In this document: one piece after another, positions 7,326-26,316 of the stretch
Numbering within the stretch: the first letter of the stretch is position 1
Layout: each line of letters begins with the position of its first letter
IMG/VR virus record: IMGVR_UViG_3300033144_003992
Span: 1 to 45,243 of that record
DNA: 45,243 bases
Direction: 5' to 3' (one strand)
DNA from: a virus
Notes under the pieces: model-generated
Told to the model about the DNA's origin: nothing
The model's input: the letters and a program-made list of their open reading frames with translations, nothing else
Database searches by the model: none
Position numbers and translations under genes: made by a program

Positions 7326-7379
7326 CGCGAATTGGCCGTTACCAGCCCATACGATGCGTCTAAACCAGATCCCAGCTAG
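7317..7379 (+). CDS. Possible 20-residue leader peptide
   Basis: AAGGAGAGAGAAAAAATG on the + strand resembles the ribosome binding block used elsewhere, and opens a 20-codon frame starting MFHRELAVTSPYD. It overlaps the start of the - strand peptide at 7224-7325; at most one of the two is likely to be real. It could be a leader for rightward transcription into the 1.6-kb gap. Confidence 0.25.
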   Translation: MFHRELAVTSPYDASKPDPS

Positions 7380-7472
7380 ACTTTCCTTATCCAGCCAGAC
7401 CGCCTGATTGGGTCATATCCATGACTTCGATCCCGGGGAACTGCTCGCATCGCTCGCGATTACTTCTCTGGG

Positions 7473-7564
7473 GCGCGTAATCCTTACGGACGCGCTCACA
7501 CCGGCCAGAGACCCACACCGCAATCGGAGGAGCGGTTAACTCTAGGGCGGGCGTACCTCCCGCC
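7473..7564. other. GC-rich hairpin pair in the control region
   Basis: gcgcgt/acgcgc (7473-7495) can alternatively pair internally as cgtaa/ttacg with a TCC loop. ggcggg/cccgcc (7546-7564) has a 7-base loop. Neither has a T-run on the + strand, so they are not simple terminators. The surrounding 7430-7640 stretch is clearly more GC-rich than its neighbours. Confidence 0.5.
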
Positions 7565-8019
7565 GCACCGGGCTCACGCTACCGGCCACCTCCCGCTTCT
7601 TACGCGCCAAACGGCACTCAGACTACGCGCAGGCTAGAGGTACTTAGAGCCAAAAGCTGGGCTCACCCTGCGATAGAGGTACTATGACCTGTGTGCTAAT
7701 GAAACGCAAACGTGCTGAATTCTCTTTATATATCAACGACTTATACCTGGCCTGATTCCCTGGCGAGATGCAAACTTGCATTATTTTACCGCTCCGGAAA
7801 TAAAAAAAGCGTATAGAAAACAACAGGTTACGAGTGGGAATGACTTATCAAGAATGATTCCTACGCTCCGGGAGGGAGCAATTGATTGGGTAGGTAGTGG
7901 ATATTATTGGTGATCGTATGGGCTGAGGATTGACGAATGGTGATATGGGCTGTAGCCTAGTATGGGGAATAATGTTGGTTGCCCTGGCCTTGTAGAATGC
8001 TTTGGTATTAGTTGGATGT

Positions 8020-8065
8020 GTCTTTGCGGATATGCGCCTCCAAGACTCTAGCAGGCCTATAGCAA
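8020..8065 (+). repeat. 46-bp direct repeat, copy 1
   Basis: Identical over 46 bases to 8150-8195. It contains a possible stem gtctt/aagac enclosing a GC-rich inner loop. Downstream, gcaagac (8062-8068) can pair with gtcttgc (8107-8113) across the spacer. Confidence 0.85.
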
Positions 8066-8149
8066 GACGCGCAAGAATGGGTTGGGCGATGCCCTGGCCG
8101 GGAGTGGTCTTGCTTAGAATCTTGTAGAATGCTTGACTGGGCTAGACTG

Positions 8150-8195
8150 GTCTTTGCGGATATGCGCCTCCAAGACTCTAGCAGGCCTATAGCAA
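8150..8195 (+). repeat. 46-bp direct repeat, copy 2
   Basis: Second copy of the 8020-8065 element, offset 130 bases. A further shared stretch, cttgtagaatgctt, precedes both copies (7989 and 8121), so the duplication was originally longer. Confidence 0.85.
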
Positions 8196-8327
8196 AGTAG
8201 CAAGATGGTGATGGAGATCTGGCCTGGCGATTGCCTTAATGCTTTGTTAGAGACCAATATAACAAAGATCAGCGCGTGTTTAGAATGAGTCTAAATGATC
8301 TGGCCGTGCCTCCCGGAAAAGTGTGTC

Positions 8328-8380
8328 TAAGCTGTTGATTCTATGGGGGTTTCAAAAAAGCCTTATAGAACAACAGCTTA
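8328..8380. other. Long near-perfect hairpin
   Basis: taagctgttg (8328-8337) pairs with caacagctta (8371-8380); after one bulged A, ttctat pairs with atagaa (8339-8344 with 8365-8370). The helix continues through GU, GC and AU pairs with one mismatch to a CAAA loop at 8353-8356. Roughly 24 pairs over 53 bases is far more than chance would give in this region. It could be an RNase III site, a small RNA or a protein-binding site. Confidence 0.75.
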
Positions 8381-8393
8381 GAGCTGAAAGGAT

Positions 8394-8419
8394 GGTGTTC
8401 CTATAGTAGAAGGGACACC
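8394..8419. other. Second stem-loop next to the long hairpin
   Basis: ggtgttcc pairs with gggacacc (one GU) around a 10-base loop. It follows the 8328-8380 hairpin by 13 bases, so the two may form one structured RNA. Confidence 0.5.
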
Positions 8420-8574
8420 GATATGGCCTATATACCTGGGTCTGTTAGGGTTGTAGTGGTTATACAGGGATATTAACAGGTTACAGTGGATATATATTAT
8501 CGTTTGTTAGGAGTCAGTACCGTATCCCGGGCAAGATGGTTCCCCATCACGGATTTTGATTCGGCCTATAGACA

Positions 8575-8601
8575 TTGTCGGTTAACTGTTTGATTTATAA
8601 G
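8575..8601 (+). promoter_or_regulatory. Weak candidate rightward promoter
   Basis: TTGTCG (8575-8580) and TATAAG (8596-8601) are separated by 15 bases, shorter than optimal. The -35 hexamer is the same as in the better promoter at 1945-1917. If active it would read toward the terminase genes. Confidence 0.25.
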
Positions 8602-8822
8602 GGAAAACTGGCATTTTTGGGTCTTTTTGCAAGCAATCCTTGCTCTGCCTGCATATTTCCGGTAGGGTCACACATAACCCCATTTGTTTGTGATCGCACC
8701 TGGCTCCGGTCATCTCCGGCACGATAGCTAGCAAATGAGGATAGAGTCCAGAGGCACTATCCAGTAGGCAATGGGTCTTTGCCGATGCTTCCCGGTACTG
8801 GGGCTGTGGCGAATTGGCTCGA

Positions 8823-8848
8823 TGGAGGAGGGCAGTGGAGGAGGGCAG
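8823..8848 (+). repeat. 13-bp tandem repeat, two copies
   Basis: TGGAGGAGGGCAG is repeated exactly, head to tail. It lies about 150 bases before the terminase small-subunit candidate, where packaging sites are often found. Confidence 0.7.
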
Positions 8849-8885
8849 ATCAAATCAGTTGGATAGGTATCCAATCCATTGCCAC

Positions 8886-8907
8886 CTGGCGCTCGTTCCT
8901 GCGCCAG
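8886..8907. other. Stem-loop before the terminase genes
   Basis: ctggcgc/gcgccag, 7 bp with an 8-base loop. No T-run follows on the + strand. It may shape the late leader or belong to a packaging site. Confidence 0.45.
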
Positions 8908-9003
8908 TTGCAGAGGCTTATATAGTGAAATTATGTGCACCGAGATTTTGAAAAAAGTTCAAACCAAGCAATCTAGTAATTGCTCTAAATCAAAGCCATC
9001 AAC

Positions 9004-9405
9004 GTGAAGAACGTAGTCATCCCATTCCAGCGCAATAAAAAAGTATCAGACTTAAGGACTCACTTAAATGGGCCAGCCTTGCTTGGTTCATTGAGTTCGC
9101 ACCTAAAAGCAATTGGGGCAATAGAAAAAGAACTAGAAAGCAGCATCCAGGATTTTGACCGCGAGATTCTGGATAAAGACGGCGAGGTCATCAGAACAGA
9201 AACCTACAGATCCACAATTCTTGATAAGGAGACCATTGCTGTTTACCATACCAGAATGAATGCCCGGAAGCTGCAGATTGATACGACGCTCAAAATGCTA
9301 AATAAGGTGATGCCAGACCTTAAGGCAATTGAAAACACTGAAGACATAGCCAACGCAGCAGAACGTGCGCTGAGTGCATTCGCACAAGCCGCAGCAGAAG
9401 AATAA
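9004..9405 (+). CDS. Probable terminase small subunit (133 aa)
   Basis: First gene of the rightward block, overlapping the large terminase by one base (TAATG), the usual position of the small subunit. The sequence is largely helical: residues about 30-100 look coiled-coil (GAIEKELESSIQDFDREI), followed by an Ala-rich end. I do not see a clear helix-turn-helix, so the role rests on position. The start is a GTG with no visible Shine-Dalgarno and may be wrong. Confidence 0.65.
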   Translation: MKNVVIPFQRNKKVSDLRTHLNGPALLGSLSSHLKAIGAIEKELESSIQDFDREILDKDGEVIRTETYRSTILDKETIAVYHTRMNARKLQIDTTLKMLNKVMPDLKAIENTEDIANAAERALSAFAQAAAEE

Positions 9406-10934: not shown

Positions 10935-13176
10935 GTTCCTGAAACCAGCGCCAGTTATCACCCCAACAAGATCTGCAATGGGTTGGAGCGAGTCCAAGCT
11001 GTATGGCAATGATTTCCCGAAGTATAACCCGGATGAGTTGATTGGGAGAAAAGGCCACCGTATCTATCGTGACATGATGATTGACGAGCAGGTCAAGGCA
11101 GTCGTCAAGTTTAAGCGCGACGCAATCACTGCGCGTGACTTTACTTTCCGCATGCCGGATGATGGTAGTGTGCCACACAACGAAGAAGCCAAACGCCGCA
11201 TAGACATTTACAACACTATGGTGCGTGAGACTCATGGATCATTTGCGGATGGCATGAACTTTGTGATGATGGCTATGTATCAGGGCTTCTCGATGACTGA
11301 GAAGCTGATTGATACATTTGACTACAAAGGCAAGCCATATCTAGGCATCAAGAAGCTGGTTCCAAAGCCATTTGACACCTTTTCCTTTAAGGTAGACCAA
11401 TATGGCACTATCAAACAGACAATCCAGAAACTCAACACTGAAGAACAAACAATAGACCTTTCCAGGTTCATATACTACGTTCAGAACCCAGAAGCAGATT
11501 ACCATTATGGCCAATCTGAACTCCGGGAAGCATACCGCAGCTGGTATTCTAAAGACATCATCATCCGGCTGTACAATATTTTTCTTGAGAAGTTTGCTGG
11601 CGGGTTAGTTATTGGTAAGCCATCAGCCGGCACTAGCTTAACCCCCGGAACCCCCGATTATAACGCAATGTTGGCTGCTATGGACTCGATTCAAGTTCAA
11701 ACCAGCCTATTACTCCCGGCTAACATCGACGTGGACATAAATCAACCGTCAACCACAGATCAGTACGAGAAGGCAATACAGATGCACGATTTGGGCATTA
11801 GTAAAGCCTTGTTGGTGCCGAACCTGTTGGGCATCACCCCGAGCGCCAACACTGGCGGTTACGCGCAGGCCAATACTCAGTTAGAAGCATTCCTGTGGAC
11901 GTTGGATGCTGATGCTATGCGCTTGGAGGAGGCTCTGAACGAGCAAATCTTTATTCCATTGAGCAAGGTCAACTTTGCAGATGGTATTGGGCCAGTCCTT
12001 AAGTTCAAGCCGGTGTCTGAGACTAAGAAGTTTGAAATTGCTAAGGTCTGGAAGGAATTGGTGGTTGGGGCTGCTGTTGAGGCTAGTGATTCTGATGAGC
12101 ACCACTTACGCGAAATGCTTGACTTCCCGGAGAAAGGTGAGCCATTGGATCTCACGCCCGAGGTTGGCGAACCGGGTGAGGTGCTTCCCGGAACATCACA
12201 ACGCAAGCCTGTAGCCAAGACCAACACCAAAGGCAAGGTGGTTAACAGTGCTGGTTTCGCTAGGGCAGAGAAGCGTGTCAGCTTCAATGTTATAGAAAAG
12301 AAAGCCACCGCGATTGAGAATGAGCGCGTCAAGGCAATTGAATCCAAGATCGTGGAAATGGTCAAGAACATTGTTGAGAGGATTGAGCATGAGAAGTTAG
12401 GTACACCATTCGCCGGCATCAATGGAATCAGCGCCATAGACTTCATCCCACGCCAAAAGAGCAAGGTTCGTAAAGAAATTGACAGCATGCTAACTCAATC
12501 ATGGGCTTTGGGTAAGAAACACGCCACAACCGAGATAAGCAAAGCCCGGAAGGAACAGTTCAAAGTTGATATGGGTCGAATTGACGTTGATGCTGCTGAC
12601 TTCTTGGCTGCTAATGGTTTTCGCATGTTCGGTATGCTTTCAGATGATATGAAGGCAATTATGCAGGGCATATTGATTAATGGCATTAAGTTCAGTTGGA
12701 CTACTAACCAGATCGTATGGAAGTTGTATGATGAGCTAGCTGCTGGCGGGTTTATATCCGCTGAAAGCGCTGCGTTATCTACCGGGCGCACGATAGAACA
12801 AGTGCTAGGGACGATAGGCACAGCCGGGGAAGCCCATAGGCTACACACAGCCGTTAGGACTAATGTGTTTGAGGCTATTAATGAGGCGCGTTTCAGCTTG
12901 TTCACTGATCCTACGCTGGATGGTTTTGTTGAGGCGCTGGAATATTCCGCTATACTCGACTCACGGACTACACGGGTTTGCCGGCACATGGATGACAGGG
13001 TGTATCCAATTGGGGATGAGGTTTGGAATAAACACCGCCCACCGAATCATTTTAACTGCCGGAGCATCTTGATTCCGGTGACTTTGATTGATGAGGACGT
13101 TGAAGGCAAAGATTCAGATGATGGGCGTTGGAGCAAGCCACCGTCCGTTTCACCACAACAAGGCTTTGGAGGTTAG
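10912..13176 (+). CDS. Portal protein (DUF935, Mu gp29-like) fused to a Mu gpF-like head domain
   Basis: Residues about 1-430 match the DUF935 portal type (RDMMIDEQVKAVVKFKRDAI, LGITPSANTGGYAQANTQLE). After a linker, residues about 480-754 end in the gpF/SPP1 gp7 signature: AILDSRTTRVCRHMD, then HRPPNHFNCRS. In Mu these are two genes; here one frame carries both. The dodecameric portal would thus bring its minor head protein along. The start ATG at 10912 follows GGAGAG by 8 bases; a second ATG is adjacent. No stop or frameshift separates the halves. Confidence 0.93.
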   Translation: MMPQFLTKFLKPAPVITPTRSAMGWSESKLYGNDFPKYNPDELIGRKGHRIYRDMMIDEQVKAVVKFKRDAITARDFTFRMPDDGSVPHNEEAKRRIDIYNTMVRETHGSFADGMNFVMMAMYQGFSMTEKLIDTFDYKGKPYLGIKKLVPKPFDTFSFKVDQYGTIKQTIQKLNTEEQTIDLSRFIYYVQNPEADYHYGQSELREAYRSWYSKDIIIRLYNIFLEKFAGGLVIGKPSAGTSLTPGTPDYNAMLAAMDSIQVQTSLLLPANIDVDINQPSTTDQYEKAIQMHDLGISKALLVPNLLGITPSANTGGYAQANTQLEAFLWTLDADAMRLEEALNEQIFIPLSKVNFADGIGPVLKFKPVSETKKFEIAKVWKELVVGAAVEASDSDEHHLREMLDFPEKGEPLDLTPEVGEPGEVLPGTSQRKPVAKTNTKGKVVNSAGFARAEKRVSFNVIEKKATAIENERVKAIESKIVEMVKNIVERIEHEKLGTPFAGINGISAIDFIPRQKSKVRKEIDSMLTQSWALGKKHATTEISKARKEQFKVDMGRIDVDAADFLAANGFRMFGMLSDDMKAIMQGILINGIKFSWTTNQIVWKLYDELAAGGFISAESAALSTGRTIEQVLGTIGTAGEAHRLHTAVRTNVFEAINEARFSLFTDPTLDGFVEALEYSAILDSRTTRVCRHMDDRVYPIGDEVWNKHRPPNHFNCRSILIPVTLIDEDVEGKDSDDGRWSKPPSVSPQQGFGG

Positions 13177-14903: not shown

Positions 14904-15257
14904 ATGACTGTTGAAAATAGGTACGAAACACTCACGATTGTCTCCTCGCAGGATTTGACTATGCACCAGTTCAAGCCTATTGGTTTGGACGGTCTTGTTG
15001 CCATAACGACTGCTGGTGCTGCTGGTATCCTTCGCACTAAGCCTCAGAACAAAGACCATTGTACTGTTGCTTATAAAGGCTACATGAAGGCATTTGCTGG
15101 TGCTGCCATTAATAGTGGCGATCTGGTCGGCGTTACCACGAGTGGGTTCTTGATCACTGTTACAACTTCTGCTTACGTTGGTAAATGCCTCGTGACAGCA
15201 GGTAGTGGCGACATCTTCCCGTTCATTGGCGACTTTAACATGGGCTTAATTGCTTAA
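14904..15257 (+). CDS. Head decoration protein (DUF2190-like)
   Basis: 117 residues of beta-rich sequence with a Gly/Ala/Thr pattern (AINSGDLVGVTTSGFLITV), typical of small capsid cement or decoration proteins placed before the major capsid gene. It would bind the outside of the mature shell and stabilise it. Starts three bases after the protease stop. Confidence 0.8.
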   Translation: MTVENRYETLTIVSSQDLTMHQFKPIGLDGLVAITTAGAAGILRTKPQNKDHCTVAYKGYMKAFAGAAINSGDLVGVTTSGFLITVTTSAYVGKCLVTAGSGDIFPFIGDFNMGLIA

Positions 15258-15268
15258 GGAGGTTAATC

Positions 15269-16234
15269 ATGCCACAATCTACACAACGTGATCTCCACAT
15301 TGATGCTCTGTTATCGCAGATGGCCATTGGTTATTTCCAAGACACCGGAATTGCCAGGCTTATTGCACCAGTCATCCCTGTGGCGAAACAAGGAGACATG
15401 TACAGTGTCTTTTCTCGCGCTGACGCACTTCGCACCGAAGCATCCGAAAGGTCGCCCGGCACCGAAGCCAACAAGATCACCCGGACAATCTCCAGTGATA
15501 CTTACTACACGCAGAACTACGCGCTGAAGTATGGTGTTACGATTGAAGATCGTTCCAATGCTGATCCTGTGTTCCGTCAGAATCTTATCACCAACGCAGC
15601 AGAATACGTACTGGATAAACTCAGCCTTGGTTGGGAACAGCGCGTTGCTACTCTTGTTCAAGCTACTGGCTCAGTAAGTTCGAGTGCTGGTGTTGGTTCG
15701 GAGTGGGACGCTGCGGCTAGTTCTGATCCTATCGGTGATATGGAATCGGCAATGGACAATGTCCAAGACCTGACTGGTCTGCGCCCGAACCGTGTTGTCA
15801 TGGGGCTGGATGCTTGGCGTTCACTGAAGCGCAACACTAGTGTTCGTGACTTGATCTTTGGTGCAACAGGCGGTGGTAGTCCACAGCGCAACGTAACCAA
15901 GCAGCAAGTTGCTAATGCTCTTGAAGTGGAGCAGGTTCTGGTTGGTGCTGCTTATCGGAATACAGCGAATGAGGCTCAGGCTGAAACGTTGGCTAAGATC
16001 TGGGGTGACCATGTAACTTGTTACTACGCACCTTCAGGCGCATCTCGGGACAAACCGTCTTGGATGTATTCGTTCCGTTGGTCTGCTCCGGGCTTGCCGA
16101 ATATGCAGGTTGAACGCCATGCGTATGATACCAAGACCAAGCAGGAAGAAGTTGAGGTTGGTTATTACCAATCTGAAAAGATTACGGCTGCTGATTATGC
16201 ATTCACGCTCGTCTCGGTGAATTCAAGCACGTAA
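15269..16234 (+). CDS. Major capsid protein
   Basis: 321 residues preceded by a perfect AGGAGG. The sequence fits phage HK97-fold major capsid proteins of this type: N-terminal arm, then ASERSPGTEANKI, the TGLRPNRVVMGLDAWRSL segment and a C-terminal KQEEVEVGYYQSEKI strand. Position after scaffold and decoration genes and before a strong terminator agrees. No conspicuous N-terminal propeptide beyond the scaffold is visible. Confidence 0.92.
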   Translation: MPQSTQRDLHIDALLSQMAIGYFQDTGIARLIAPVIPVAKQGDMYSVFSRADALRTEASERSPGTEANKITRTISSDTYYTQNYALKYGVTIEDRSNADPVFRQNLITNAAEYVLDKLSLGWEQRVATLVQATGSVSSSAGVGSEWDAAASSDPIGDMESAMDNVQDLTGLRPNRVVMGLDAWRSLKRNTSVRDLIFGATGGGSPQRNVTKQQVANALEVEQVLVGAAYRNTANEAQAETLAKIWGDHVTCYYAPSGASRDKPSWMYSFRWSAPGLPNMQVERHAYDTKTKQEEVEVGYYQSEKITAADYAFTLVSVNSST

Positions 16235-16246
16235 ATCTGGCGCACT

Positions 16247-16311
16247 GGGAGAACTCGATTGAACCCTTTAATATGCCTTTTGTCGAGAAAGCAGTTGGGT
16301 TCTCCCTTTTT
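16247..16311 (+). terminator. Terminator after the major capsid gene
   Basis: gggagaac (16247-16254) pairs with gttctccc (16299-16306), directly followed by TTTTT. The long loop contains an inner ctcga/tcgag stem. It would reduce read-through from the heavily expressed capsid gene into the next genes. Confidence 0.8.
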
Positions 16312-16312
16312 G

Positions 16313-16334
16313 TTTCACAATACGTGTTGTGAAA
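16313..16334 (+). promoter_or_regulatory. Stem-loop placed directly before a ribosome binding site
   Basis: tttcacaa/ttgtgaaa is a perfect 8-bp stem with a 6-base loop, immediately followed by GGAGAGTGACATG. The arrangement mirrors the hairpin-ribosome-binding modules of the left operon, here on the + strand. Confidence 0.65.
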
Positions 16335-16344
16335 GGAGAGTGAC

Positions 16345-16539
16345 ATGTTGATACCAGTTGGATTGAAAGGGAAAGAGCGGGATGCTTATGTTAAACGCCA
16401 CACCCATCAAATTCGTAATGTAAATGCTGGGCCAAAGCCCGGGTTACGACCAGTAGGCAAAAAAGCTGAAGGAGCGAAGAAAAGTGCTAAGACCTTTAGA
16501 CAGAACAAACGGCAAACGCCAACCGCGTCAGCTGAATGA
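16345..16539 (+). CDS. Small very basic protein (64 aa)
   Basis: Begins MLIPVGLKGKERDAYVKRHT after GGAGAG and is rich in Lys, Arg and Pro with no acidic core (PKPGLRPVGKKAEGAKKSAK). It may bind nucleic acid or capsid. It is the first gene after the capsid terminator. No family is recognised. Confidence 0.75.
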   Translation: MLIPVGLKGKERDAYVKRHTHQIRNVNAGPKPGLRPVGKKAEGAKKSAKTFRQNKRQTPTASAE

Positions 16540-16606
16540 GAATGAACGGAAACGCGTTCAACAGCAGCATGAGAAAGCAGCATACAAACGGCGCAATCGG
16601 AAATGA
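16484..16606 (+). CDS. Small basic Gln/Arg-rich protein in an overlapping frame (40 aa)
   Basis: Starts at a GTG after GGAGCGAAGAAAA and overlaps the 3' half of the preceding gene in another frame. It reads with RQLNENERKRVQQQHEKAAY as its main helix-like part. Its stop overlaps the start of the sulfotransferase-like gene (ATGA), a coupling arrangement common here, which supports it being translated. Confidence 0.55.
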   Translation: MLRPLDRTNGKRQPRQLNENERKRVQQQHEKAAYKRRNRK

Positions 16607-17109
16607 TTTGGTTGTTAACGATCAAGCATACAGGCACGCATTATATGCTTGATGGGCTAGAACAAATGGGACTTTCACAAGCAACAATGTGCAAACACAC
16701 GGGCGTAATAAATGATCCGACATTGGGTTTTATTCATGCTCATATTGATGAGACAAGTCACAAAGCAATTGATCGTGCTGTTAAGCCAGTTGTTGTGACT
16801 TTGCGCAATCCTGTAAGTACCTTTAAATCATTTTGCCGAAGAAATAGCGTTGATTCAGAGCAACTTATAATCAACGCAATGGATAAATGGTCAGCTGTTG
16901 TTGATAAGTTTGACCCGTTCATCTTCAAGGTTGATAGTGAAGCAGCTGAAGAAAAGCAGTTCAATAGGTTGATTAAGTTTTTAGGCATGCCAATTGAAAG
17001 GTCAATATCTATTGAATTGGAAAAGTACAATCACCACATTGGTGCCTTTGTGGATGAAATACCAGATAGCGTTTTTAAGTTAGCAGAACAATACGGTTAT
17101 AAATCCTAA
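16603..17109 (+). CDS. Sulfotransferase-like P-loop protein (168 aa)
   Basis: HTGTHYMLDGLEQMG at residues 9-23 sits where sulfotransferases have their PAPS 5'-phosphosulfate loop, and VVVTLRNPVSTFKSFCRR (63-80) resembles the 3'-phosphate binding RxPxxxxxS segment. The protein is short for a sulfotransferase, so it could be a minimal or altered-specificity member. It is followed 14 bases later by the glycosyltransferase fusion, suggesting it acts on the same glycan or target. The reaction is inferred from these two motifs only. Confidence 0.65.
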   Translation: MIWLLTIKHTGTHYMLDGLEQMGLSQATMCKHTGVINDPTLGFIHAHIDETSHKAIDRAVKPVVVTLRNPVSTFKSFCRRNSVDSEQLIINAMDKWSAVVDKFDPFIFKVDSEAAEEKQFNRLIKFLGMPIERSISIELEKYNHHIGAFVDEIPDSVFKLAEQYGYKS

Positions 17110-17123
17110 CAGGAGTCAAAGAC

Positions 17124-20084
17124 ATGCAAATTGTAATACATTCGGGTGGCATCCCGTTCGATGGGGACACTATTAAGGAACGGAGTTTGGGAGGCAGTGA
17201 AAGTGCAGCATACTACGTCGCAAAAGAACTGGCTAACAGAGGGCATAAGGTTGTCGTGTTCACCGAGAAAGAAGGCAATTCTGAATCTGATGGGGTCACA
17301 TATCTCCACATGGGAGAAAGAAGCCAACAGAAGCCGATGGGAACCAATTGGCACTTCTATTGCGAAAACACTCCCCATGAAGTCAATATCGTTCAACGAG
17401 CACCAGGTGGTTTCTTCCATTCCATCCAGAGCAAGATCAATCTCTGGTGGGCTCATGACATCGCATTGAAACGGAATAACAACGCATTCATGGCTCAGAC
17501 TTGGCAAACGAACGCAGTACTCCCAGTGAGTCACTGGTTTAAAGACCAGATTGGTGAGGCGTGGCTGTGTGACCCAGATCGTATTCACCCGGTACACAAC
17601 GGGGTGGATTACTCGATGTTTGAGCAGTTTACTTTGAAGGATAACAGTAAAGCGTCTGATGGCGTCACACTCCTTTATAGCTCGCGCCCTGAACGTGGAT
17701 TGGAACACCTTGTTCGCCCGGGCGGCATCATGGAGCGGTTGGTTGAGGAGGCTCCCCACATCAAGTTGAAGGTCTGTGGGTATGAGCATCCTGTTCCACA
17801 GCTGGACGGGTTCTATGGCCACCTCCGGGAGCGTTGTGAGGAGTTACCGAATGTTGAGCACTTGGGTGAGCTTACCAAAGAAGCACTCTGTAAGATCCAG
17901 TGCGAGGAGGCAGATGTTTGGTGCTACCCGACTGAGTTCGAGGAGGTCAGTTGTATTACTGCTATGGAGTGTATGGCGGCTGGCATGTCGATTGTTACCA
18001 CTAACATTGGCGCGCTCCCAGAGACTATTGGCAATTACGAGAATGCCGTTATCTTTAAGGCTGATGACGGAGTGGATGAGGACAAGTTTGTTAAATGGCT
18101 GCTAGAGTTTGATAACAAGTTCCGGCGTCATCCGTTACGCGAGTACACTTGGGAGCGGGTGGCTGACGAGTTCGAGGAGGTTATCACTAATTGCTTTTAT
18201 GAGTGCAACAAGGACGTTGATGCTGTAGCTCGGCATTATCTCCGTAACTCTGATATCATTGCTTTTAATAAACTGCCTGAGCCTGTTTCTCTCGATCTGA
18301 TTGACGAGGTTCAGACGCTATATGCTCCTTGGATGAATGACCAGAAAGCCTACGCAGAACACTACGCAGAAGGCACTGAGGAGATGTATGATGGCCCAGA
18401 CTTCAGTTACGAAAAGCAAGAGTTTGTAAACCATCCGAGGTTTCAAGAGGTAGCCAGATGGGTTGGTGAGAACTTTAAGGATGGCGACACTGTAATTGAT
18501 TACGGTTGTGCCCACGGACACTTTACCAATTATCTAGCACAGATGTTCCCAAAGATGAACTTCATAGGGATAGATGTTAGCCCCAAGGCAATTGAGGTTG
18601 CTACGGAGAAAGCTGGAGAAATGGGACTCATCAATATTAGTTATGTTCTTGGTGATTGGCTAGACAATCTAAGTGATTTTGGTCACGATCAGCCTGATGG
18701 CATTATCCTTGGTGAGATATTGGAGCATGTTCCTGACCCGGTTGATTTCATGGATGTTGTTGGTGAGCACGTAGGTGATTGCAAGGTGCTTGTAACAACT
18801 CCATTTGGCCCATGGGAGAAGATGAGTTATGAAAGTGATTATCCAAGACGCTTTCACCTTCATCATTTTGAAAGGTCTGATATTGATGACATGTTCGGCC
18901 ATCATGATTCACTTATCGTTAACTGTCTGCCTGCTGGGGCTGGAACGGATGGTGACCTTATTGGGTGGTATGTTTACTCGTTTGCACTTGAGAATGAAAC
19001 AGTTAACTGCCGACCTATTGATTATGATCGCAAGCTGGCGGAGACTGTCCCGAGGCAGACTGTAAGTTTCTGCTGTATTGTTAAGAATGGCGAAGCTGAG
19101 TTGCTTAAGCTATTACGCAGTGTTGAGCCTTATGCTGATGAGATAATTATTGGTATTGATAATACCACAACTGATAATACGGCATTAACAATTGCCCATT
19201 TTTTACATGAATTGGAAAAGAAGCATCGCTCACCAAAGCTAAATGTTGAATATTTTGATATGCCATCCCCGGTTGAGATTGGTTTTGATGCTGCTAGGAA
19301 CTTGACTATTGAAAAGGCTACCAAGCATTGGATCATGTGGGCTGATGCTGATGAGGAGTTCATCTGTGGCGAACGGTTGCCCAAGTACCTACGACAAAAC
19401 GGTTGGAAAGGCTACGGGATACCACAGCATCACTTCTCTACAGAACCACTAGGTGTTCTGAGCACTGACTTCCCGGTGCGATTGTTCCGTAGGGACGATG
19501 ACATACGCTTTCGCGGCGTAGTCCACGAGCATCCTGAGCATAAAGATAAACAAGATGATGGCGTCGGGTTTGCTTTCGTGTTACATGAGTTGCACTTCTC
19601 CCATGGTGGTTATGGTACTGAAGCAATACGGCGTAGCAGATTCCAACGCAACATTAGCCTCATGGCTCGGGATAGGCAGGAAAATCCTGATCGGTTGCTT
19701 GGCAAATTCCTATGGATACGGGATCTGGCCTTGATGTGTCGTTTTGAGATTGAACAGAATGGTGGAATGGTGTCCCCGGATATGAGGCTCAAGGCTATTG
19801 CTGGCTTGAAACTCTGGGAGGACACAATTGATGATCACGGAGACCATCCGCAAGTTAGACGTATGACCAGAGACCATCTGGAATTTTACGATACACTCGT
19901 AAATGTCTTGGATACTGGTTTTGTATTCAGGATGAATTTATGCTCTGGGGAAGCAGGGTCACAGCCCCAGCTTGATCCGGGGCGTGAAGTGGTTGCTCGA
20001 TTCTTGAACAAAGAGCATTTGGACAAATTCTTGTCTATTGTTATTGATGAAGAGGTGAATGGTTATGGAACAAAATATCAGTAA
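17124..20084 (+). CDS. GT4 glycosyltransferase - SAM methyltransferase - GT2 glycosyltransferase fusion (986 aa)
   Basis: Three catalytic domains lie in one frame. Residues 1-370: a GT4-type transferase with GGSESAAYYVAKELANRGHK at the N-terminus, HNGVDYSMFE near 158 and EVSCITAMECMAAGMSIVTT near 273. Residues about 415-625: a class I methyltransferase with VIDYGCAHGHFTNYLAQ near 457 and FIGIDVSPKAIEVA. Residues about 645-870: a GT2 domain with VSFCCIVKNGEAELLKLLRS and the DAD metal motif near 740. A helical tail follows. There are no membrane segments, so it is cytoplasmic. It could build and methylate a glycan on virion proteins or on host material. The preceding gene is sulfotransferase-like. 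Confidence 0.88.
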   Translation: MQIVIHSGGIPFDGDTIKERSLGGSESAAYYVAKELANRGHKVVVFTEKEGNSESDGVTYLHMGERSQQKPMGTNWHFYCENTPHEVNIVQRAPGGFFHSIQSKINLWWAHDIALKRNNNAFMAQTWQTNAVLPVSHWFKDQIGEAWLCDPDRIHPVHNGVDYSMFEQFTLKDNSKASDGVTLLYSSRPERGLEHLVRPGGIMERLVEEAPHIKLKVCGYEHPVPQLDGFYGHLRERCEELPNVEHLGELTKEALCKIQCEEADVWCYPTEFEEVSCITAMECMAAGMSIVTTNIGALPETIGNYENAVIFKADDGVDEDKFVKWLLEFDNKFRRHPLREYTWERVADEFEEVITNCFYECNKDVDAVARHYLRNSDIIAFNKLPEPVSLDLIDEVQTLYAPWMNDQKAYAEHYAEGTEEMYDGPDFSYEKQEFVNHPRFQEVARWVGENFKDGDTVIDYGCAHGHFTNYLAQMFPKMNFIGIDVSPKAIEVATEKAGEMGLINISYVLGDWLDNLSDFGHDQPDGIILGEILEHVPDPVDFMDVVGEHVGDCKVLVTTPFGPWEKMSYESDYPRRFHLHHFERSDIDDMFGHHDSLIVNCLPAGAGTDGDLIGWYVYSFALENETVNCRPIDYDRKLAETVPRQTVSFCCIVKNGEAELLKLLRSVEPYADEIIIGIDNTTTDNTALTIAHFLHELEKKHRSPKLNVEYFDMPSPVEIGFDAARNLTIEKATKHWIMWADADEEFICGERLPKYLRQNGWKGYGIPQHHFSTEPLGVLSTDFPVRLFRRDDDIRFRGVVHEHPEHKDKQDDGVGFAFVLHELHFSHGGYGTEAIRRSRFQRNISLMARDRQENPDRLLGKFLWIRDLALMCRFEIEQNGGMVSPDMRLKAIAGLKLWEDTIDDHGDHPQVRRMTRDHLEFYDTLVNVLDTGFVFRMNLCSGEAGSQPQLDPGREVVARFLNKEHLDKFLSIVIDEEVNGYGTKYQ

Positions 20085-20559
20085 GTCCGAGACAGATATT
20101 GTCAATGACTTTTTGGGACTGCAGGGCACATTTGTCAGGACGATTACGCGAGCGAATGGTGATGTTGATCGTAAGGTACTGCCGAACATTGTAACGGCTG
20201 ATGGCCTCAACAATGTCGCTGACCGGGCAATTAGTGATGCTGGGTCTAAATACAACTGGTTGGCTGTTGGTACTGCTAACTATACACCGCACATTAACTC
20301 GCAGGAGATTCTTGAATGTGATCGGAAAGTAGCAGCCTTGATCAGCGCTTCTAAAGAACTGATCGTTTGCATTGCTACTTGGGGTGGTTCAGTTGACTCG
20401 GTTACGAGTAACCAGCTTGAGATGGCTGGTATTGCTAATCATCCAACGTCTGGTTCTGGTCATTACTTGAACGTGGCTAATGGTTTGTCAACTGTGTTGG
20501 CTGACTCTGACTTTTTGCACCTTGAAGTGCAGGTTCGAGTTGGTTCTCATGCTATCTAA
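20065..20559 (+). CDS. Conserved virion-associated hypothetical protein (164 aa)
   Basis: The pattern 'GLNNVADRAIS ... YNWLAVGTANYTP' resembles a group of small phage structural proteins with an LAIGTGTT-like motif, usually near tail-fibre genes. The start at 20065 is preferred over 20059 because GAGGTG then lies 7 bases upstream. It overlaps the end of the glycosyltransferase fusion by 20 bases. Confidence 0.78.
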   Translation: MEQNISKSETDIVNDFLGLQGTFVRTITRANGDVDRKVLPNIVTADGLNNVADRAISDAGSKYNWLAVGTANYTPHINSQEILECDRKVAALISASKELIVCIATWGGSVDSVTSNQLEMAGIANHPTSGSGHYLNVANGLSTVLADSDFLHLEVQVRVGSHAI

Positions 20560-20571
20560 TGAGGTGATGTT

Positions 20572-20946
20572 ATGCCACTTTGGGCGCACAGAACGACCTT
20601 TCAGGTTCTGCCTTCGGTTGCGGAGGCAGATCTGCCTGAACCTGTTGGCAATTATGTAGAGGAACCAGAGCTTTCTGCTGTTGCAGGGTGGCCACTAGGC
20701 TACTGGATTCTCACTGGTGATGTATTCACATTAGCTGATCAAGCGGCCAGGGACGCCATTGATGTGGCCTCGCAGTCGTCAGCAAGAGATTTGCTTGCTA
20801 ACGAAATGGATAGGGTTGAAAGTTATATGCGAGGCTTTGTGTTGGTGCTTCTTGATGAAATCAATTTGTTGCGGTCACAACATAGTTTAGCTGATAGAAC
20901 ACCAGCCCAATTGAAAACAGCAATAAGGAGCAAACTCGATGTCTAG
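20572..20946 (+). CDS. Hypothetical structural protein (124 aa)
   Basis: Begins MPLWAHRTTFQVLPSVAEAD after GAGGTG. The first half has Trp/Pro-rich beta-like sequence (WPLGYWILTGDVFTL), the second half is a long helix (RDLLANEMDRVESYMRGFVL). It lies in the fibre/decoration island and is probably a fibre-associated protein. No family is recognised. Confidence 0.75.
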   Translation: MPLWAHRTTFQVLPSVAEADLPEPVGNYVEEPELSAVAGWPLGYWILTGDVFTLADQAARDAIDVASQSSARDLLANEMDRVESYMRGFVLVLLDEINLLRSQHSLADRTPAQLKTAIRSKLDV

Positions 20947-21457
20947 TGGCGATTCTTTATGCGTTTGGAACGCGCTGGCGAATGAACCCCCAGATGCGGA
21001 TTTTGCAACGTTTGATACAATTCTGACAACATCTTCTGATGAACCGGATGATATTGTGCCTGTATTAGATTTTGATCCAGGCGCAACACAGGAATTCGCG
21101 TCATTCTCAGCACATATGCCGGAGCATTATGGTGGGGGCGGGCTAACTTTGATCCTGATCTGGACATCTGAGGCAACTTCTGGCGATGTGAAGTGGGATG
21201 CAGCATTTAAGGCGTTAGCTGATGCAGCGGGAATGGACGCAACCTATGCTGCGATCCAAACGACAACGACCACAACGGATGGAACAGTAAGAGCAATCAA
21301 TACCACAGTGATAACCTTTACTGACGGTGCGCAGATTGACTCGATTGCGGTTGGTGAATATTTCCGCTTGCTGGTGACTAGGGATTCTGTAGATGCGGCT
21401 GACACAATGAACTCAAATGATGCAGAACTTATCAGCGCCTATCTCAAGGAAACCTGA
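20939..21457 (+). CDS. Beta-sandwich virion protein, decoration or fibre type (172 aa)
   Basis: The sequence FASFSAHMPEHYGGGGLTLI then WTSEATSGDVKWDAAFKALA resembles phage fibre or decoration modules with an H-YxGGGL motif. A Thr-rich stretch precedes the C-terminal strands. Its start overlaps the preceding gene by 8 bases. It probably forms a surface-exposed virion part. Confidence 0.78.
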   Translation: MSSGDSLCVWNALANEPPDADFATFDTILTTSSDEPDDIVPVLDFDPGATQEFASFSAHMPEHYGGGGLTLILIWTSEATSGDVKWDAAFKALADAAGMDATYAAIQTTTTTTDGTVRAINTTVITFTDGAQIDSIAVGEYFRLLVTRDSVDAADTMNSNDAELISAYLKET

Positions 21458-21459
21458 TA

Positions 21460-22299
21460 GTGGCTCGTTTATTTGATGATGCAAATAGTGAATATATCTC
21501 AGCATCAATATCTGATGTTTCTATGCCGATTACAATGGGTGCGTGGGCTAAACATGATGGTAATGTTTCTGGTCTCATATTAGGTCTTTTAAATGCTGGT
21601 GCTGATACGGATAGATTTTGGTTGGAAATGTTGTGGAGTGGAATTATGTTATCCACAGCGGTTGTTACTGACAATGTTCCAACAACACACAAATCAGCTG
21701 CACAATTGGTCACATCAGGTGTTTGGTCACATCAGTTAGGTGTATTTAAAAATCTATCCAGCAGAACTGGTTATTTGAATGGGGTTGCCAGTGCTGAACA
21801 TACAGCTACGCTGAACAACGATCCAATTGTTAATGAGGTTGTAATTGGGCGTAACAATAAAGCCACGCCGAATGAATACTTATCGGGTTCGGTTGCAGAA
21901 GCAGCAATTTGGGATGTTGAATTAACTCAAGCTGAAATTGATATTTTGGTTGCTGGATATAGCCCATTATTTGTACACCCTCAAAATTTGATCTTTTATG
22001 CCCCACTTGTTGCATCACCTTCTCGCGATACAAACAATGATGTGATTGGTGGTTTGGATCTTACTGGCACAGCACCAGAAAATTTTAATCATCCACCAAT
22101 AATCTACCCATCGGCTCAGATATTGCAGTTTCCATCAGGCGTTGCTGGTGGAGCAATTAATTCTAAAACGTTGACTGATTTAATAGCAGCATCGGACAAG
22201 AACTTTCACGAAGGCGTAAGTGGCACGATTATTGAGGATGTTTACCGGCGACGGTTCCCAGTCACAGACACTGACGAATACCCACCGGGGTGGTCGTGA
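21460..22299 (+). CDS. LamG/concanavalin-like lectin domain protein (279 aa)
   Basis: Residues about 1-175 follow the LamG/pentraxin-like plan found on phage fibres: an N-terminal strand with YISAS, a central SSRTGYLNGV and the late SGSVAEAAIWDVELTQAEID motif. The C-terminal 100 residues are separate and end YRRRFPVTDTDEYPPGWS. It should bind a glycan, on the host surface or on the virion itself. GTG start two bases after the previous stop. Confidence 0.82.
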   Translation: MARLFDDANSEYISASISDVSMPITMGAWAKHDGNVSGLILGLLNAGADTDRFWLEMLWSGIMLSTAVVTDNVPTTHKSAAQLVTSGVWSHQLGVFKNLSSRTGYLNGVASAEHTATLNNDPIVNEVVIGRNNKATPNEYLSGSVAEAAIWDVELTQAEIDILVAGYSPLFVHPQNLIFYAPLVASPSRDTNNDVIGGLDLTGTAPENFNHPPIIYPSAQILQFPSGVAGGAINSKTLTDLIAASDKNFHEGVSGTIIEDVYRRRFPVTDTDEYPPGWS

Positions 22300-22670
22300 T
22301 GTTCCGTATCTACTATGGTGATGGCTCAGTCTTTGATGGACAGCCTGAAGACGCACCAACAACTAATGTGCAGGCTATTGCCTGGAACGATCCCCAAAAA
22401 GGTGTATTGAATCTCGGGCGCGTCGTATTACTTGAGTGGGACATCTACATCTACTCGGATCATGTTGGCGGCTGGCATGGCACCAATAAGTACGCCGACC
22501 TTCTTCAACATCTTGGTAAGGGTTGTGGCTCCGGTGGTGTTCGAGCAGTACTACAAGGCGCATGGATAAGTCGTGCAGATTATTTTGTAATTAAGAAACG
22601 CGCCGAAACCGATGAAGGTCTTAAGCGCAAGTCTGCTGGTGACCCTAATCGTGAGGATGGCTCCGAATGA
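22299..22670 (+). CDS. Hypothetical protein, island member (123 aa)
   Basis: Start ATG at 22299 overlaps the previous stop (TGATG). Contains FRIYYGDGSVFDGQ at the start and a basic C-terminus ending DPNREDGSE. The pattern YYGDGS-F-G is found in small phage proteins of unknown function placed near fibre genes. Four-base overlap with the next gene. Confidence 0.75.
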   Translation: MFRIYYGDGSVFDGQPEDAPTTNVQAIAWNDPQKGVLNLGRVVLLEWDIYIYSDHVGGWHGTNKYADLLQHLGKGCGSGGVRAVLQGAWISRADYFVIKKRAETDEGLKRKSAGDPNREDGSE

Positions 22671-25144
22671 GCACAGACGCCAATCCCACAGTCAGGCATT
22701 TCCGGTTCTGTGGCCCAGTTACCGGATCTGCGCATGAGGCATACACGCTTCTCGGTTCGGAGGACACCAGTCTTGAGATAACGCTGGATGATGATTACTG
22801 CATCATCATGAAGTTGGGCAACGACGGCGACATGGCGCTCAACAATGATTTCAAACTTCAGTACGATATTGATGGTGCGGCCAGTTGGGCCGATGTAAGC
22901 AGTACGTCTAACAATGTGCGTGTTGCATCAACTGGTGATATTGATGAGGCAACATCTACAACTGAACGTTTGGGGACGTCAGCAGAAACTTATGTAGGTT
23001 CTGCGCTTGATGAAGTTGATGGAATAGTTATTACAAACCTTGCTGGTGGGGATGAGTACGAGTTTTATTATGCCATAACTTTCCGCTCCGCTGACCTGTC
23101 TGGTGGTGAATCAATAACATTCCGACTGGTCTATACGTCAATAACTGATGTCCCGATTGGTGATGGTGGGACTACGGCGACGGCAACAGTACCCGAAGCT
23201 GGTGACCAGATATTTAACGTCACGCTGCAAGACCTCGACAGCATGGCAGTCACAGATCCATCCGAACCAAAGCAACGATTCAGGGACAGGGAACAATTAG
23301 ATACTGCTGAATTAATAGACATCGTAAACTCTTTCAGACATATTGATAGAGCGACAACTGATGATTTTGATGTTACGGATGACTTGGTTGTTCTGCGCGA
23401 GCGAATAAGAATTGTTTTGTCAGTCTTAGAAATGACTGATGTGACTGTTGAATTAAGACTTAGCGACAGGGCGTTGTTGAGTCAAGCTTTGGTGGTTGAT
23501 AATGCCATTGCTACTTATTTTGGATCAGCAGTAATTAACAATGAAGTATTGTCAGATGCTTTGGTTACCATTGATGCTATTGAGGTATTGAGAGAACGAT
23601 ACAGAACCACAACAATTTCCCTAGCAGTTACCGATGCTATAGCAGATCAACAAGCTATAAGACCTAGAGAGTTGGCTGATAATTTAGCCATAGCTGAATT
23701 CCTCGGCCAATTACGTAAGCATGAAATAGAAATGATAAATAACATTGTCCATCTATCGGATAATGTTATTGCTACGTACACCGAGTATGATCCTGGTGCT
23801 GGCGCAATAAACAACGTCACCAAGACCGATACGCTAGAAGTAACTGACGCGCTTGCTGCGCTACGTGAGCGTATCCGAGCAGCCCTAGACACAACCGCCG
23901 CTACCGATAGCCTAACGCCGGAGCGGGAGCGTGCTAGACAGCTATTAGACAGCCTAGCAGTCACAGATGCGAAGAACAACTATGCTGTATCCAATAGAAC
24001 CCTACTAGATTCATTAGCAGTAACAGACGCAGCAATACAGCTTCGGCAACGCGCCCGGAACCTTTTAGATGCAATTGTTCTATTAGATAGCATAGACGCA
24101 CAAAGCACCGGCGTAACCAGTCGCACATTAACGGATACATTCGCTGTTACTGATTTGCTGATTCCTTTAAGAGAGTTACAACGAGCATTAAGTGATAACC
24201 TAGCAGCGACAGACAATACAGCAATAGTCCGAACGCGATTAAGAATAGCATCAGACAATTTAGCAGTCACAGACTTCCAGATTTCATTAACGGAACGTTT
24301 AAGAACCCTGACTGATAATTTTGCTGCTACAGACTCTAGCATAGAACTGCGAGAGCGCAATCGCATACTGGTTGAAGCATTTGATATTGTAGATAATGTT
24401 ATAGCAGATTACATCCCCCCGGGCAGCGTTACCTACAATCGAACTCTACAAGACCTAGACACCACAGTTACAGACTCTAGCATAGAACTGCGCGAACGTA
24501 TCCGGGCGGAATTAGATAATGTTGACGCGACTGATGATGTTACTGCTACGTATGTTCCGCCGGGCAGTGTTATTTATCCAGTAACATTGTCTGATAATTT
24601 ATCTGTTATTGACTTTAGTATAGAACTGCGTGAACGTATCCGATTGTACGCTGATGCTTTGACGGTTAGTGATTCGATAATCGTTACTGCTCTTGGCATT
24701 ACTAATCGCACATTGTCTGATGCTTTATTGACGTCAGATCTATTGGCTATGCGCCGGGATCGTGACCGCCTATTAACAGACACCATCGAAGGCATCGCTG
24801 ATTCGCTCTCCTACCATCGTGTAAGGATGCAGGAGGATGCCGATGCTATTAGTCTTACAGATGCCTCCACATATCTCCTAGAGCGGCGTAGAACCCTTAC
24901 GGACGCGCTAGAAGCGTCTGATCAGTTGCTTGCACTGCGCTTACGGTATCGGGAGTTGTTTGATAGCACAGATGTCATAGATTCTGTGATTGCTCTGTAT
25001 ATTACTGAGATACTTAATCCTATAATAACGGCTGGCTTGGAAACATTGGCAGTGGATCACGAAATATTAATGTTGCACATTGACCATGGCATTGAAGAAT
25101 TTAAGATTGACTTGGACACTAAACACGAAGCAGGTTCATCATGA
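22667..25144 (+). CDS. Long repeat protein, probable fibre or adhesin (825 aa)
   Basis: Residues 1-185 form a beta-rich head domain. From about 190 to 780 the chain is built of units close to 20 residues, consensus SDNLAVTD-xxIxLRERxR, for example three consecutive units near 24191-24370. A short helical tail of about 45 residues closes it. Copies are degenerate at DNA level except for a few near-identical stretches (CTAGCATAGAACTGCG at 24337 and 24477). The regular D/T-x-D plus LRER pattern suggests a rigid rod. A receptor-binding or surface fibre role is inferred from repeats and position. Confidence 0.82.
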   Translation: MSTDANPTVRHFRFCGPVTGSAHEAYTLLGSEDTSLEITLDDDYCIIMKLGNDGDMALNNDFKLQYDIDGAASWADVSSTSNNVRVASTGDIDEATSTTERLGTSAETYVGSALDEVDGIVITNLAGGDEYEFYYAITFRSADLSGGESITFRLVYTSITDVPIGDGGTTATATVPEAGDQIFNVTLQDLDSMAVTDPSEPKQRFRDREQLDTAELIDIVNSFRHIDRATTDDFDVTDDLVVLRERIRIVLSVLEMTDVTVELRLSDRALLSQALVVDNAIATYFGSAVINNEVLSDALVTIDAIEVLRERYRTTTISLAVTDAIADQQAIRPRELADNLAIAEFLGQLRKHEIEMINNIVHLSDNVIATYTEYDPGAGAINNVTKTDTLEVTDALAALRERIRAALDTTAATDSLTPERERARQLLDSLAVTDAKNNYAVSNRTLLDSLAVTDAAIQLRQRARNLLDAIVLLDSIDAQSTGVTSRTLTDTFAVTDLLIPLRELQRALSDNLAATDNTAIVRTRLRIASDNLAVTDFQISLTERLRTLTDNFAATDSSIELRERNRILVEAFDIVDNVIADYIPPGSVTYNRTLQDLDTTVTDSSIELRERIRAELDNVDATDDVTATYVPPGSVIYPVTLSDNLSVIDFSIELRERIRLYADALTVSDSIIVTALGITNRTLSDALLTSDLLAMRRDRDRLLTDTIEGIADSLSYHRVRMQEDADAISLTDASTYLLERRRTLTDALEASDQLLALRLRYRELFDSTDVIDSVIALYITEILNPIITAGLETLAVDHEILMLHIDHGIEEFKIDLDTKHEAGSS

Positions 25145-25416
25145 GTGATTTAAAACGAGTTTTGGTTGGTGATACTTTTAAGCAAACGTTCGTGAACAGT
25201 GGTGCGTCCGCCAGCCCAATCGTCGCCTCAATAGTCAACGGATCAGAAACCATAATCAATAGTGGTTCGGCTGTGGATAGCGGCAATGGCCATTACTATC
25301 GAATGACGTCTGTTGATACTCCCGGCTATTATGTAAGCCAATGGGATGCAACAATATCCGCAAAAGCCTATAAGCGACGCAAACGGTTTAAGGCAGTATT
25401 GAGTGAGGTGGATTGA
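25141..25416 (+). CDS. Small beta-rich virion protein (91 aa)
   Basis: Starts with ATGA overlap on the repeat protein. VLVGDTFKQTFVNSG and GHYYRMTSVDTPGYYVSQW indicate a small beta-domain of Ig-like length with a basic tail. It may be a fibre tip or adaptor for the repeat protein. No family is recognised. Confidence 0.75.
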   Translation: MSDLKRVLVGDTFKQTFVNSGASASPIVASIVNGSETIINSGSAVDSGNGHYYRMTSVDTPGYYVSQWDATISAKAYKRRKRFKAVLSEVD

Positions 25417-25417
25417 T

Positions 25418-25867
25418 ATGGGACGGTATATTGATTGGGAAGATGTGATTGACCGTTACCCAGTGTTGAATACGCTTGGCGGGTCTGATGAAATATCCTC
25501 TACTTACATTGTTTATGCTGAAGCGATGACTGAAGGGTTGCTTGCTTCTAAGTACACAGTGCCATTCTCCAATAACAATATGACAGTGAAGGATTTGTCT
25601 ATTGATTATGCGTACTGGATGGCTGCTCGGTTTAAGCTGGAGGATGCTGTTGCTGTTTATAGTGCTTACTTCGGCACTATCAGGATGCTGAAGAAAGACC
25701 AAATGGAAATGATCCTAACGGATGGAACCCTAGTCACTGACGCGAGAAAGAACACCGGCATCTATAGCACAACGCAATCCTACCATAGTGCCTTTGGTAT
25801 TGATGAACCTGATAATTGGCGTGTTGATTCTGACCAGATGTCTGATGCACAGGATTCAAGATTGTGA
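25418..25867 (+). CDS. Head-tail connector protein (gp36/DUF1320-like)
   Basis: 149 residues starting MGRYIDWEDVIDRYP, followed by an 'EAMTEGLLASKYTVPF' helix and VKDLSIDYAYWMAARF, the plan of Mu gp36-type adaptors. These form a ring under the portal. Start set by GAGGTGG; an earlier in-frame start would overlap the previous gene. The block order gp36-gpG-gp37-tail tube follows Mu-like phages. Confidence 0.8.
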   Translation: MGRYIDWEDVIDRYPVLNTLGGSDEISSTYIVYAEAMTEGLLASKYTVPFSNNNMTVKDLSIDYAYWMAARFKLEDAVAVYSAYFGTIRMLKKDQMEMILTDGTLVTDARKNTGIYSTTQSYHSAFGIDEPDNWRVDSDQMSDAQDSRL

Positions 25868-26316
25868 AAATTGAGGTCATCCCAATTCGCGGTGGCTCGA
25901 AGGCAGTCGTAGCCAAGCTACGCAAGATAACGCGCAAGATAAAGAACCCGTCAAAAGCCAACCGGGAAGTTTCAATTTGGTTGATGCGGTGGGTCAATAG
26001 GAATTTTAAGACTGAAGGTGGAAAGGTCGGTAGCTGGTTGCCATTTAAGCATGGTGGTCGAGTTGGCGCTGGTGGGATTGATAAGAGCGCAAAGCTACTC
26101 CGGGACACAGGCCGTTTACAAAAATCATTTAGCCCGTTCTACAGCAGGACTGAAGCAGGGATTGGTACTGATTTACCGTATGCATTGACGCATGAACTAG
26201 GCAAATTGAGTAAGAATGTTCCTGTTCGCCGGATGTTGCCGCTTGCTTCGGATAGGCTCGTGACTGATGGTATCCTGAAAATTTATGATCGGTGGCTTGA
26301 GAGAGCAATAAGATGA
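25864..26316 (+). CDS. Virion morphogenesis protein (Mu gpG / Phage_tail_S-like)
   Basis: 150 residues with the family pattern: GSWLPFKHGGR, LLRDTGRLQKSF, IGTDLPYALTHELG and a late VPVRRML. These proteins complete or join tails to heads. GTG start overlapping the previous stop (GTGA). Confidence 0.85.
   Translation: MKIEVIPIRGGSKAVVAKLRKITRKIKNPSKANREVSIWLMRWVNRNFKTEGGKVGSWLPFKHGGRVGAGGIDKSAKLLRDTGRLQKSFSPFYSRTEAGIGTDLPYALTHELGKLSKNVPVRRMLPLASDRLVTDGILKIYDRWLERAIR

Follow-up and report, generated by a model that had tools for sequence, protein, structure and literature searches.

A GT4-methyltransferase-GT2 fusion protein encoded beside the major capsid gene of environmental tailed phages is a candidate virion glycosyltransferase

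The window, by which we mean the whole stretch of DNA analysed here, is a 45.2-kb virus record with siphovirus-type genes and without terminal repeats. Its DNA polymerase and helicase genes lie on the strand opposite to the structural genes. The features that concern us are as follows.

9405, 10885 and 13756: head genes for terminase, portal and protease, respectively
14904-15257, plus strand: cement/decoration-type protein (PF09956 Phage_cement_2, 5.9e-5, 23.8 bits against a cut-off of 24; phrog_673)
15269-16234, plus strand: major capsid protein, MCP (phrog_1005, 4.6e-71)
16345-16539, plus strand: small basic protein of 64 aa, between the MCP and the sulfotransferase-like gene
16603-17109, plus strand: 168-aa P-loop sulfotransferase-like protein (from fold search), 14 nt upstream of the next gene
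17124-20084, plus strand: GT4-methyltransferase-GT2 gene (GT gene), 986 aa, ATG start, stop codon included in the end coordinate
17124-18218, plus strand: GT4 domain (GT-B fold), residues 1-365 (Pfam PF13439/PF00534 and VIA-align)
18321-19019, plus strand: class I SAM methyltransferase (MT) domain, residues 400-632 (PF13847, 5.9e-17)
19041-19763, plus strand: GT2 domain (GT-A fold), SunS/ThuS/GmaR-like, residues 640-880 (PF00535)
20059-20559, plus strand: 166-aa virion-block protein, its first 26 nt shared with the 3' end of the GT gene
25864-26316, plus strand: neck/tail completion protein (phrog_26, 4e-13), closing the interval between MCP and neck
28347, 31295, 33983 and 36652: tape measure, distal tail, central fibre and endolysin genes, respectively

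The order is MCP, 64-aa basic ORF, 168-aa ORF, GT gene, a block of virion-type genes that have no assigned function and the neck. Short basic ORFs resembling the 64-aa one follow the MCP in several relatives of this locus. L002 and L005 each have an ORF related to 20059-20559 at the corresponding place, and L008-L010 have similar ORFs. At the DNA level, positions 15200-22300 matched nothing among phages; an Rfam search of 6800-9400 and a tandem-repeat search of 21000-25500 returned nothing, and promoter predictions were no more numerous than in shuffles.

The first-pass annotation had described the GT gene product as one chain in which two glycosyltransferase folds flank a SAM methyltransferase, a description that Pfam, AlphaFold2 and all 90 complete relatives bear out. 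Each of the three domains has Pfam matches above curated cut-offs: PF13439 (residues 23-162) and PF00534 (202-315) for GT4, PF13847/PF13489 (438-592) for the MT and PF00535 (649-746) for GT2. The AlphaFold2 model, built from a 12-sequence alignment, is confident as a single chain (pLDDT 85.1, pTM 0.83) and falls below pLDDT 50 in two short segments only. With this model Foldseek found SunS and ThuS, GT4 enzymes of the MshA/HepE/WaaG type and class I methyltransferases. Because the VIA-align rows cover almost only residues 1-361, it is Foldseek and the profiles that support the folds assigned to the MT and GT2 domains. Compared with the relative L006 (85% identical, 665 codons compared), the gene has a dN/dS of 0.11, and the values for its parts (GT4 0.07, MT 0.12, GT2 0.10) indicate purifying selection on all three domains.

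GT4 enzymes combine a GT-B fold, conserved basic residues for the donor and an E-x7-E motif, and the N-terminal domain has all of these. VIA-align superimposes residues 1-361 on MshA (3c4q) with Z 30.4 and rmsd 2.8 over 334 aligned residues. All 90 complete relatives have R188 and R191; E274 is E in 73 and D in 17, and E282 is E in 88 of 90. In L015 the second E of the pair is absent. The central domain shows the Rossmann fold and glycine-rich SAM motif of class I methyltransferases, with D459, E531 and H535 present in 90/90 and G465 in 85/90. Because G461 (79/90, A in 11/90) and D484 (64/90, N in 24/90) vary among these relatives, we infer SAM binding by this domain rather than read it off individual residues. 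The C-terminal domain has the GT-A fold and DxD metal/donor motif of GT2 enzymes: D741, D743 and E744 of the metal motif, as well as H801, H803 and H827, occur in every complete relative. It is also the most conserved of the three (mean major-residue frequency across the 90 relatives: GT2 0.62, GT4 0.53, MT 0.46). Loss of the donor sites in two of the three domains, which the first-pass annotation had named as the outcome that would undo its reading, is not what the alignment suggests, because the residues predicted to form the donor and SAM sites are conserved in all three.

The GT2 domain gives the best indication of what the enzyme may act on. Its profile matches GmaR (1.1e-22), SunS (2.9e-20) and ThuS (2.2e-18) in the PDB, with the next match only at 8.4e-06, and Foldseek places SunS at ranks 1-4 and ThuS at ranks 10-11. 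The 986-aa protein scores 42.3 bits against the SunS equivalog TIGR04195, whose cut-off is 350, making it a relative of that family and not a member. These nearest solved relatives act on peptides (SunS, ThuS) or flagellin (GmaR); they differ from our protein in having no fused GT4 or methyltransferase and in their acceptors. GmaR is reported to transfer GlcNAc to flagellin (PMC9638930).

Relatives of the gene occur in about 100 environmental phages. First scans of viral contigs gave 6 loci with the single sequence and 17 with an alignment, all encoding relatives. Two further scans used the GT2 domain alone, so that the fusion was not demanded by the query; they yielded at least 244 and 234 confirmed relatives, and from each set the 80 top-ranked were retained. 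Ranking by GT2 similarity favours close relatives, so more distant architectures may exist. Merging identical cores reduced 167 loci to 104 proteins, and removal of L171 (phage ctKR88, of other architecture) left 103 including that of the window. The GT4-MT-GT2 order is found in all 90 complete ORFs, 89 of them plain and one (L052) being GT4-GT4-MT-GT2, and the 13 incomplete ORFs are compatible with it. Since the domain order is identical in 90 of 90, the fusion is neither a chance event nor an assembly join. The relatives measure 949 to 1308 aa from stop to stop, and the complete ones fall into 85, 70 and 30 clusters at 90, 70 and 50% identity. The sole match on a genome contig (L019, Chlorobium) involved only 55 MT residues and was set aside as spurious. 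In tblastn searches of the phage isolate collection with the 986-aa protein and with that of L099, no record reached 80% coverage; the same was true of a plasmid search with the protein of L067, where the ten rows shown were single-domain matches.

A homologous MCP, detected by profile, adjoins the GT gene in 87 of the 103 relatives: 84 have it upstream on the same strand, and in 3 the two genes lie on opposite strands. For 14 of the other 16 the contig extends only a little way in that direction, and the true exceptions are L112 and L146, which have more than 2 kb upstream without this MCP. By eye, L146 has neck-type genes downstream. The first-pass annotation had remarked on neither the capsid-gene adjacency nor the roughly 100 relatives nor the sulfotransferase-like neighbour gene.

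We propose that the 986-aa protein is probably a soluble virion glycosyltransferase. The SunS/GmaR-like GT2 domain would attach the first sugar to a side chain in either of two head proteins, the MCP or the cement protein; the GT4 domain would add a second sugar, and the MT would cap the glycan by O-methylation, with sugar donors and SAM supplied by the host. A GT2 of the side-chain-modifying type is fixed beside the capsid gene, and a capsid or cement protein is therefore indicated as acceptor. The MCP (15269-16234) would be the most likely one, with the cement-type protein (14904-15257) as the alternative. The sugar donors, which transferase acts first and what is methylated are matters that we infer, and a role of the modification in shielding, stability or adsorption of the coat may be envisaged. 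The first-pass annotation had suggested one sugar, a methyl cap and a second sugar; this is the most economical reading, and A064R and WsaE are experimentally characterized analogues. Its further suggestion that the glycan might need no contribution by the host is not supported: no nucleotide-sugar enzyme was recognized among the window ORFs scanned (40 against PHROGs, about 20 against Pfam), so the donors presumably come from the host.

In RDJL Phi 1, Salgado and Vibrio 1.024, isolates whose MCPs are homologous, no glycosyltransferase is annotated in the corresponding interval. It counts against our proposal that no Ser, Thr or Cys of the MCP separates the phages that carry the GT gene from these three that lack it. 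In the window MCP, moreover, Gly replaces two Ser residues that the family conserves.

The acceptor could instead be another virion protein, such as the tail tube, a tail fibre or a head fibre, with the MCP side serving only as a tolerated site for cargo genes. Near the GT gene lie a lectin-like ORF (21460-22299, Laminin_G_3 5e-13) and a large repetitive ORF of 825 aa (22667-25144), and mycobacteriophages are reported to glycosylate the tail tube as well as the capsid (PMC12363180). About 11 relatives also carry NUMOD4/HNH-like genes between MCP and GT gene. However, in L011, L014 and L015 the stretch from the GT gene to the neck lacks the block of large fibre-type ORFs while the MCP side stays constant, so that the constant neighbours of the GT gene are the MCP and the neck, not fibres. 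This weakens the fibres as acceptor, and we regard an acceptor other than a capsid or cement protein as unlikely.

It is very unlikely, in our judgement, that the enzyme modifies a surface glycan of the host for receptor masking or superinfection exclusion, as serotype-conversion glycosyltransferases do. The GT4 fold does resemble those of LPS and lipid glycosyltransferases (WaaG, PimA) as well as that of MshA. Yet the 986-aa protein has no membrane segment (the top 19-residue Kyte-Doolittle mean is 1.36), its gene sits inside the head morphogenesis block, the scan of window ORFs recognized neither a flippase nor an integrase, and its GT2 domain resembles SunS and GmaR.

The first-pass annotation had left room for glucosylation of DNA bases. 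Glycosyltransferases of T-even phages decorate modified bases in this way (PMC9614988), and a C-terminal fragment of ThyX lies at the end of the contig. Against such a role, the GT gene is in the structural block, peptides and proteins are the substrates of the closest GT2 enzymes, and a central methyltransferase with two glycosyltransferases would be superfluous; no base-hydroxymethylating enzyme was recognized among 40 ORFs compared with PHROGs and about 20 with Pfam, on a contig that may be incomplete. Glucosylation or other decoration of DNA bases is thus disfavoured, to the point of being highly improbable.

SunS and ThuS glycosylate bacteriocin peptides, and radical SAM genes adjoin the enzyme in some relatives, so one could imagine a small glycosylated peptide or metabolite made outside the virion, as SunS makes sublancin. 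We would be greatly surprised if this were the case: by inspection rather than systematic search, no conserved precursor-peptide gene was recognized beside the enzyme, and the genes consistently found around it encode capsid, cement and neck proteins.

Further predicted enzymes are encoded between MCP and GT gene. P-loop sulfotransferases carry motifs for the 5' and 3' phosphates of PAPS, PKSGT among them, and a catalytic base. The AlphaFold2 model of ORF 16603-17109 (pLDDT 77.4) appears to have their fold: in VIA-align, sulfotransferases account for 49 of the 50 entries listed, the best with Z 11.4 over 168 residues. Foldseek gave a mixed result in which Fap7 kinases rank first. Neither this ORF nor its three relatives has a Pfam match, and a PDB profile search with their alignment returned nothing relevant; scans of viral contigs for relatives of the ORF yielded no contigs beyond those of the GT family. 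The four-sequence alignment has [RKM]H[TS]GTHY at positions 8-14, with H at the K position of PKSGT, invariant H45 and H47, R68-N-P, and S/T at 76. Because Foldseek is mixed and the sequence profiles are empty, we treat sulfation by this predicted protein as a possible lead and not as a finding. A second sulfotransferase candidate, L013:11527-12006, was rejected, as its matches to Sulfotransfer_2 and Sulfotransfer_1 were below cut-off (0.003 and 0.016) and a plant-virus family scored equally.

Counting ORFs of 130 aa or more, the MCP-GT intervals of the loci with an upstream MCP contain 33. Four are sulfotransferase-like (window, L002, L004, L005), 5 are of GT4 type (L015, L065, L072, L086, L093), 3 of methyltransferase type (two in L013, one in L071), 5 of radical-SAM type (L070, L071, L106, L108, L111) and about 11 NUMOD4/HNH-like. 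The remaining 5 are a GT-gene fragment (L006), an ORF judged by eye to be pRha-like (L063), one unassigned ORF in L129, and minus-strand ORFs in L057 and L087. These types are Pfam-confirmed for L015, both of L013, L111 and L120, the rest being profile matches or sequence reading. Such additional genes at this spot, of glycosyltransferase, methyltransferase, radical SAM and sulfotransferase-like type, suggest antigen-like diversification of the coat. It is tempting to speculate, though we hold this tentatively and think it less likely than not, that this is a dedicated capsid-modification locus in which the GT4-MT-GT2 protein initiates, extends and methyl-caps a glycan right on the capsid shell and, in some members, the window among them, a neighbouring sulfotransferase gives a charged, sulfated coat.

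Known systems offer functional parallels. PBCV-1 A064R is reported to be a single viral chain whose two glycosyltransferases and methyltransferase build and O-methylate the end of the MCP glycan (PMC9614988); sharing this make-up with the 986-aa protein, it is the nearest functional analogue. A064R differs in being 638 aa long, in its GT-GT-MT order and other GT families, and in extending an existing N-glycan of an algal virus, whereas the 986-aa protein is GT4-MT-GT2, belongs to tailed phages and has a GT2 of the protein-initiating kind; we compare the two by function. Geobacillus WsaE is likewise a functional analogue. This trifunctional enzyme is reported to combine a methyltransferase and two rhamnosyltransferases and to add a 2-O-methyl cap to a protein-bound glycan (PMC2943079), but it is bacterial, has the order MT-GT-GT and works on a lipid-linked S-layer glycan.

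Among tailed phages, the mycobacteriophage Che8 speaks for our proposal: its capsid is reported to be glycosylated, and gp110 is described as essential for this (PMC12363180). We found gp110 to be a GT25-like GT and the nearby gp108, annotated only as a glycosyltransferase, to have GT2 and methyltransferase domains. Che8 thus resembles the window in being a tailed phage with a GT2-methyltransferase fusion and differs in having three separate genes at the genome end. Our GT4, MT and GT2 profiles gave no match to gp108-gp110, a result compatible with distant homology. A064R and these Che8 genes are the closest precedents. BFVD contains further multi-domain GT/MT proteins from uncultured phages, so such fusions, as a kind, are already known. 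Literature on phage sulfotransferases with GTs, phage GT-MT fusions and virion glycosylation, in which subscription journals were sparsely covered and mostly listings and abstracts were consulted, showed no report of this protein.

Few phage isolates are known to glycosylate their own particles. In the environmental phages described here, a diverse set (30 clusters at 50% identity), a single-chain enzyme has been retained next to the capsid gene, and its presence in about 100 of them, nearly always in the same place, suggests that their particles are coated with a short capped glycan. If the capsid is glycosylated, glycosylated tailed phages would be more frequent in nature than one would judge from isolates, and research would gain a protein-glycosylation enzyme that is compact, soluble and genetically portable.

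An unrelated podovirus, ctKR88 (Manatee Spring, MW202524), also speaks for a virion role: within approximately 8 kb after its MCP it encodes a GT2-GT4 fusion and a methyltransferase. It differs from the window in its domain order, its separate methyltransferase, a TPR linker and an MCP that does not match our MCP profile. Two further genes in that region are annotated gtA and yqgM-like.

Radical SAM genes were found repeatedly close to the gene for the GT4-methyltransferase-GT2 protein (GT gene) among the viral contigs that carry its relatives (L-numbers), Pfam having been applied to L010, L111 and L112 only:

Between the major capsid protein (MCP) gene and the GT gene: radical SAM genes in L070, L071, L106, L108 and L111
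Adjoining the GT gene: radical SAM gene in L112
L010, 2980-3714: radical SAM gene

These genes could possibly reflect additional protein modification. Sulfotransferase-like ORFs were also seen near the GT gene. In the window, a 168-aa ORF with a sulfotransferase-like fold (16603-17109) adjoins the GT gene on its upstream side, and it has relatives at the equivalent position in L002, L004 and L005. L013 has another sulfotransferase-like ORF (11527-12006), unlike that of the window and located 3′ of the GT gene, whose Pfam matches fall under the cut-off.

In about 11 relatives, homing endonuclease-like ORFs lie immediately 5′ of the GT gene, Pfam having been applied to L120 only:

Upstream of the GT gene: NUMOD4/HNH-like ORFs in L120, L129, L143, L145, L151-L153, L163, L164, L167 and L043

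The GT and MCP genes of L078, L092 and L095 are on opposite strands, yet near each other.

Elsewhere in the window, ORFs of at least 60 aa are nearly absent from a stretch of about 1.7 kb (7300-9004), which contains a 46-nt exact direct repeat (copies at 8020 and 8150) and gave no match in an Rfam search. A ThyX C-terminal fragment (44880-45224) lies at the contig end, adjoined by a short-chain dehydrogenase-like ORF (44215-44883); the virus record is probably incomplete. An 825-aa ORF (22667-25144), with no match in Pfam or PHROG, encodes diverged amino-acid repeats with the pattern RxLxDxLAVTDxxxxLRER, and its neighbour (21460-22299) has a lectin-like Laminin_G_3 domain.
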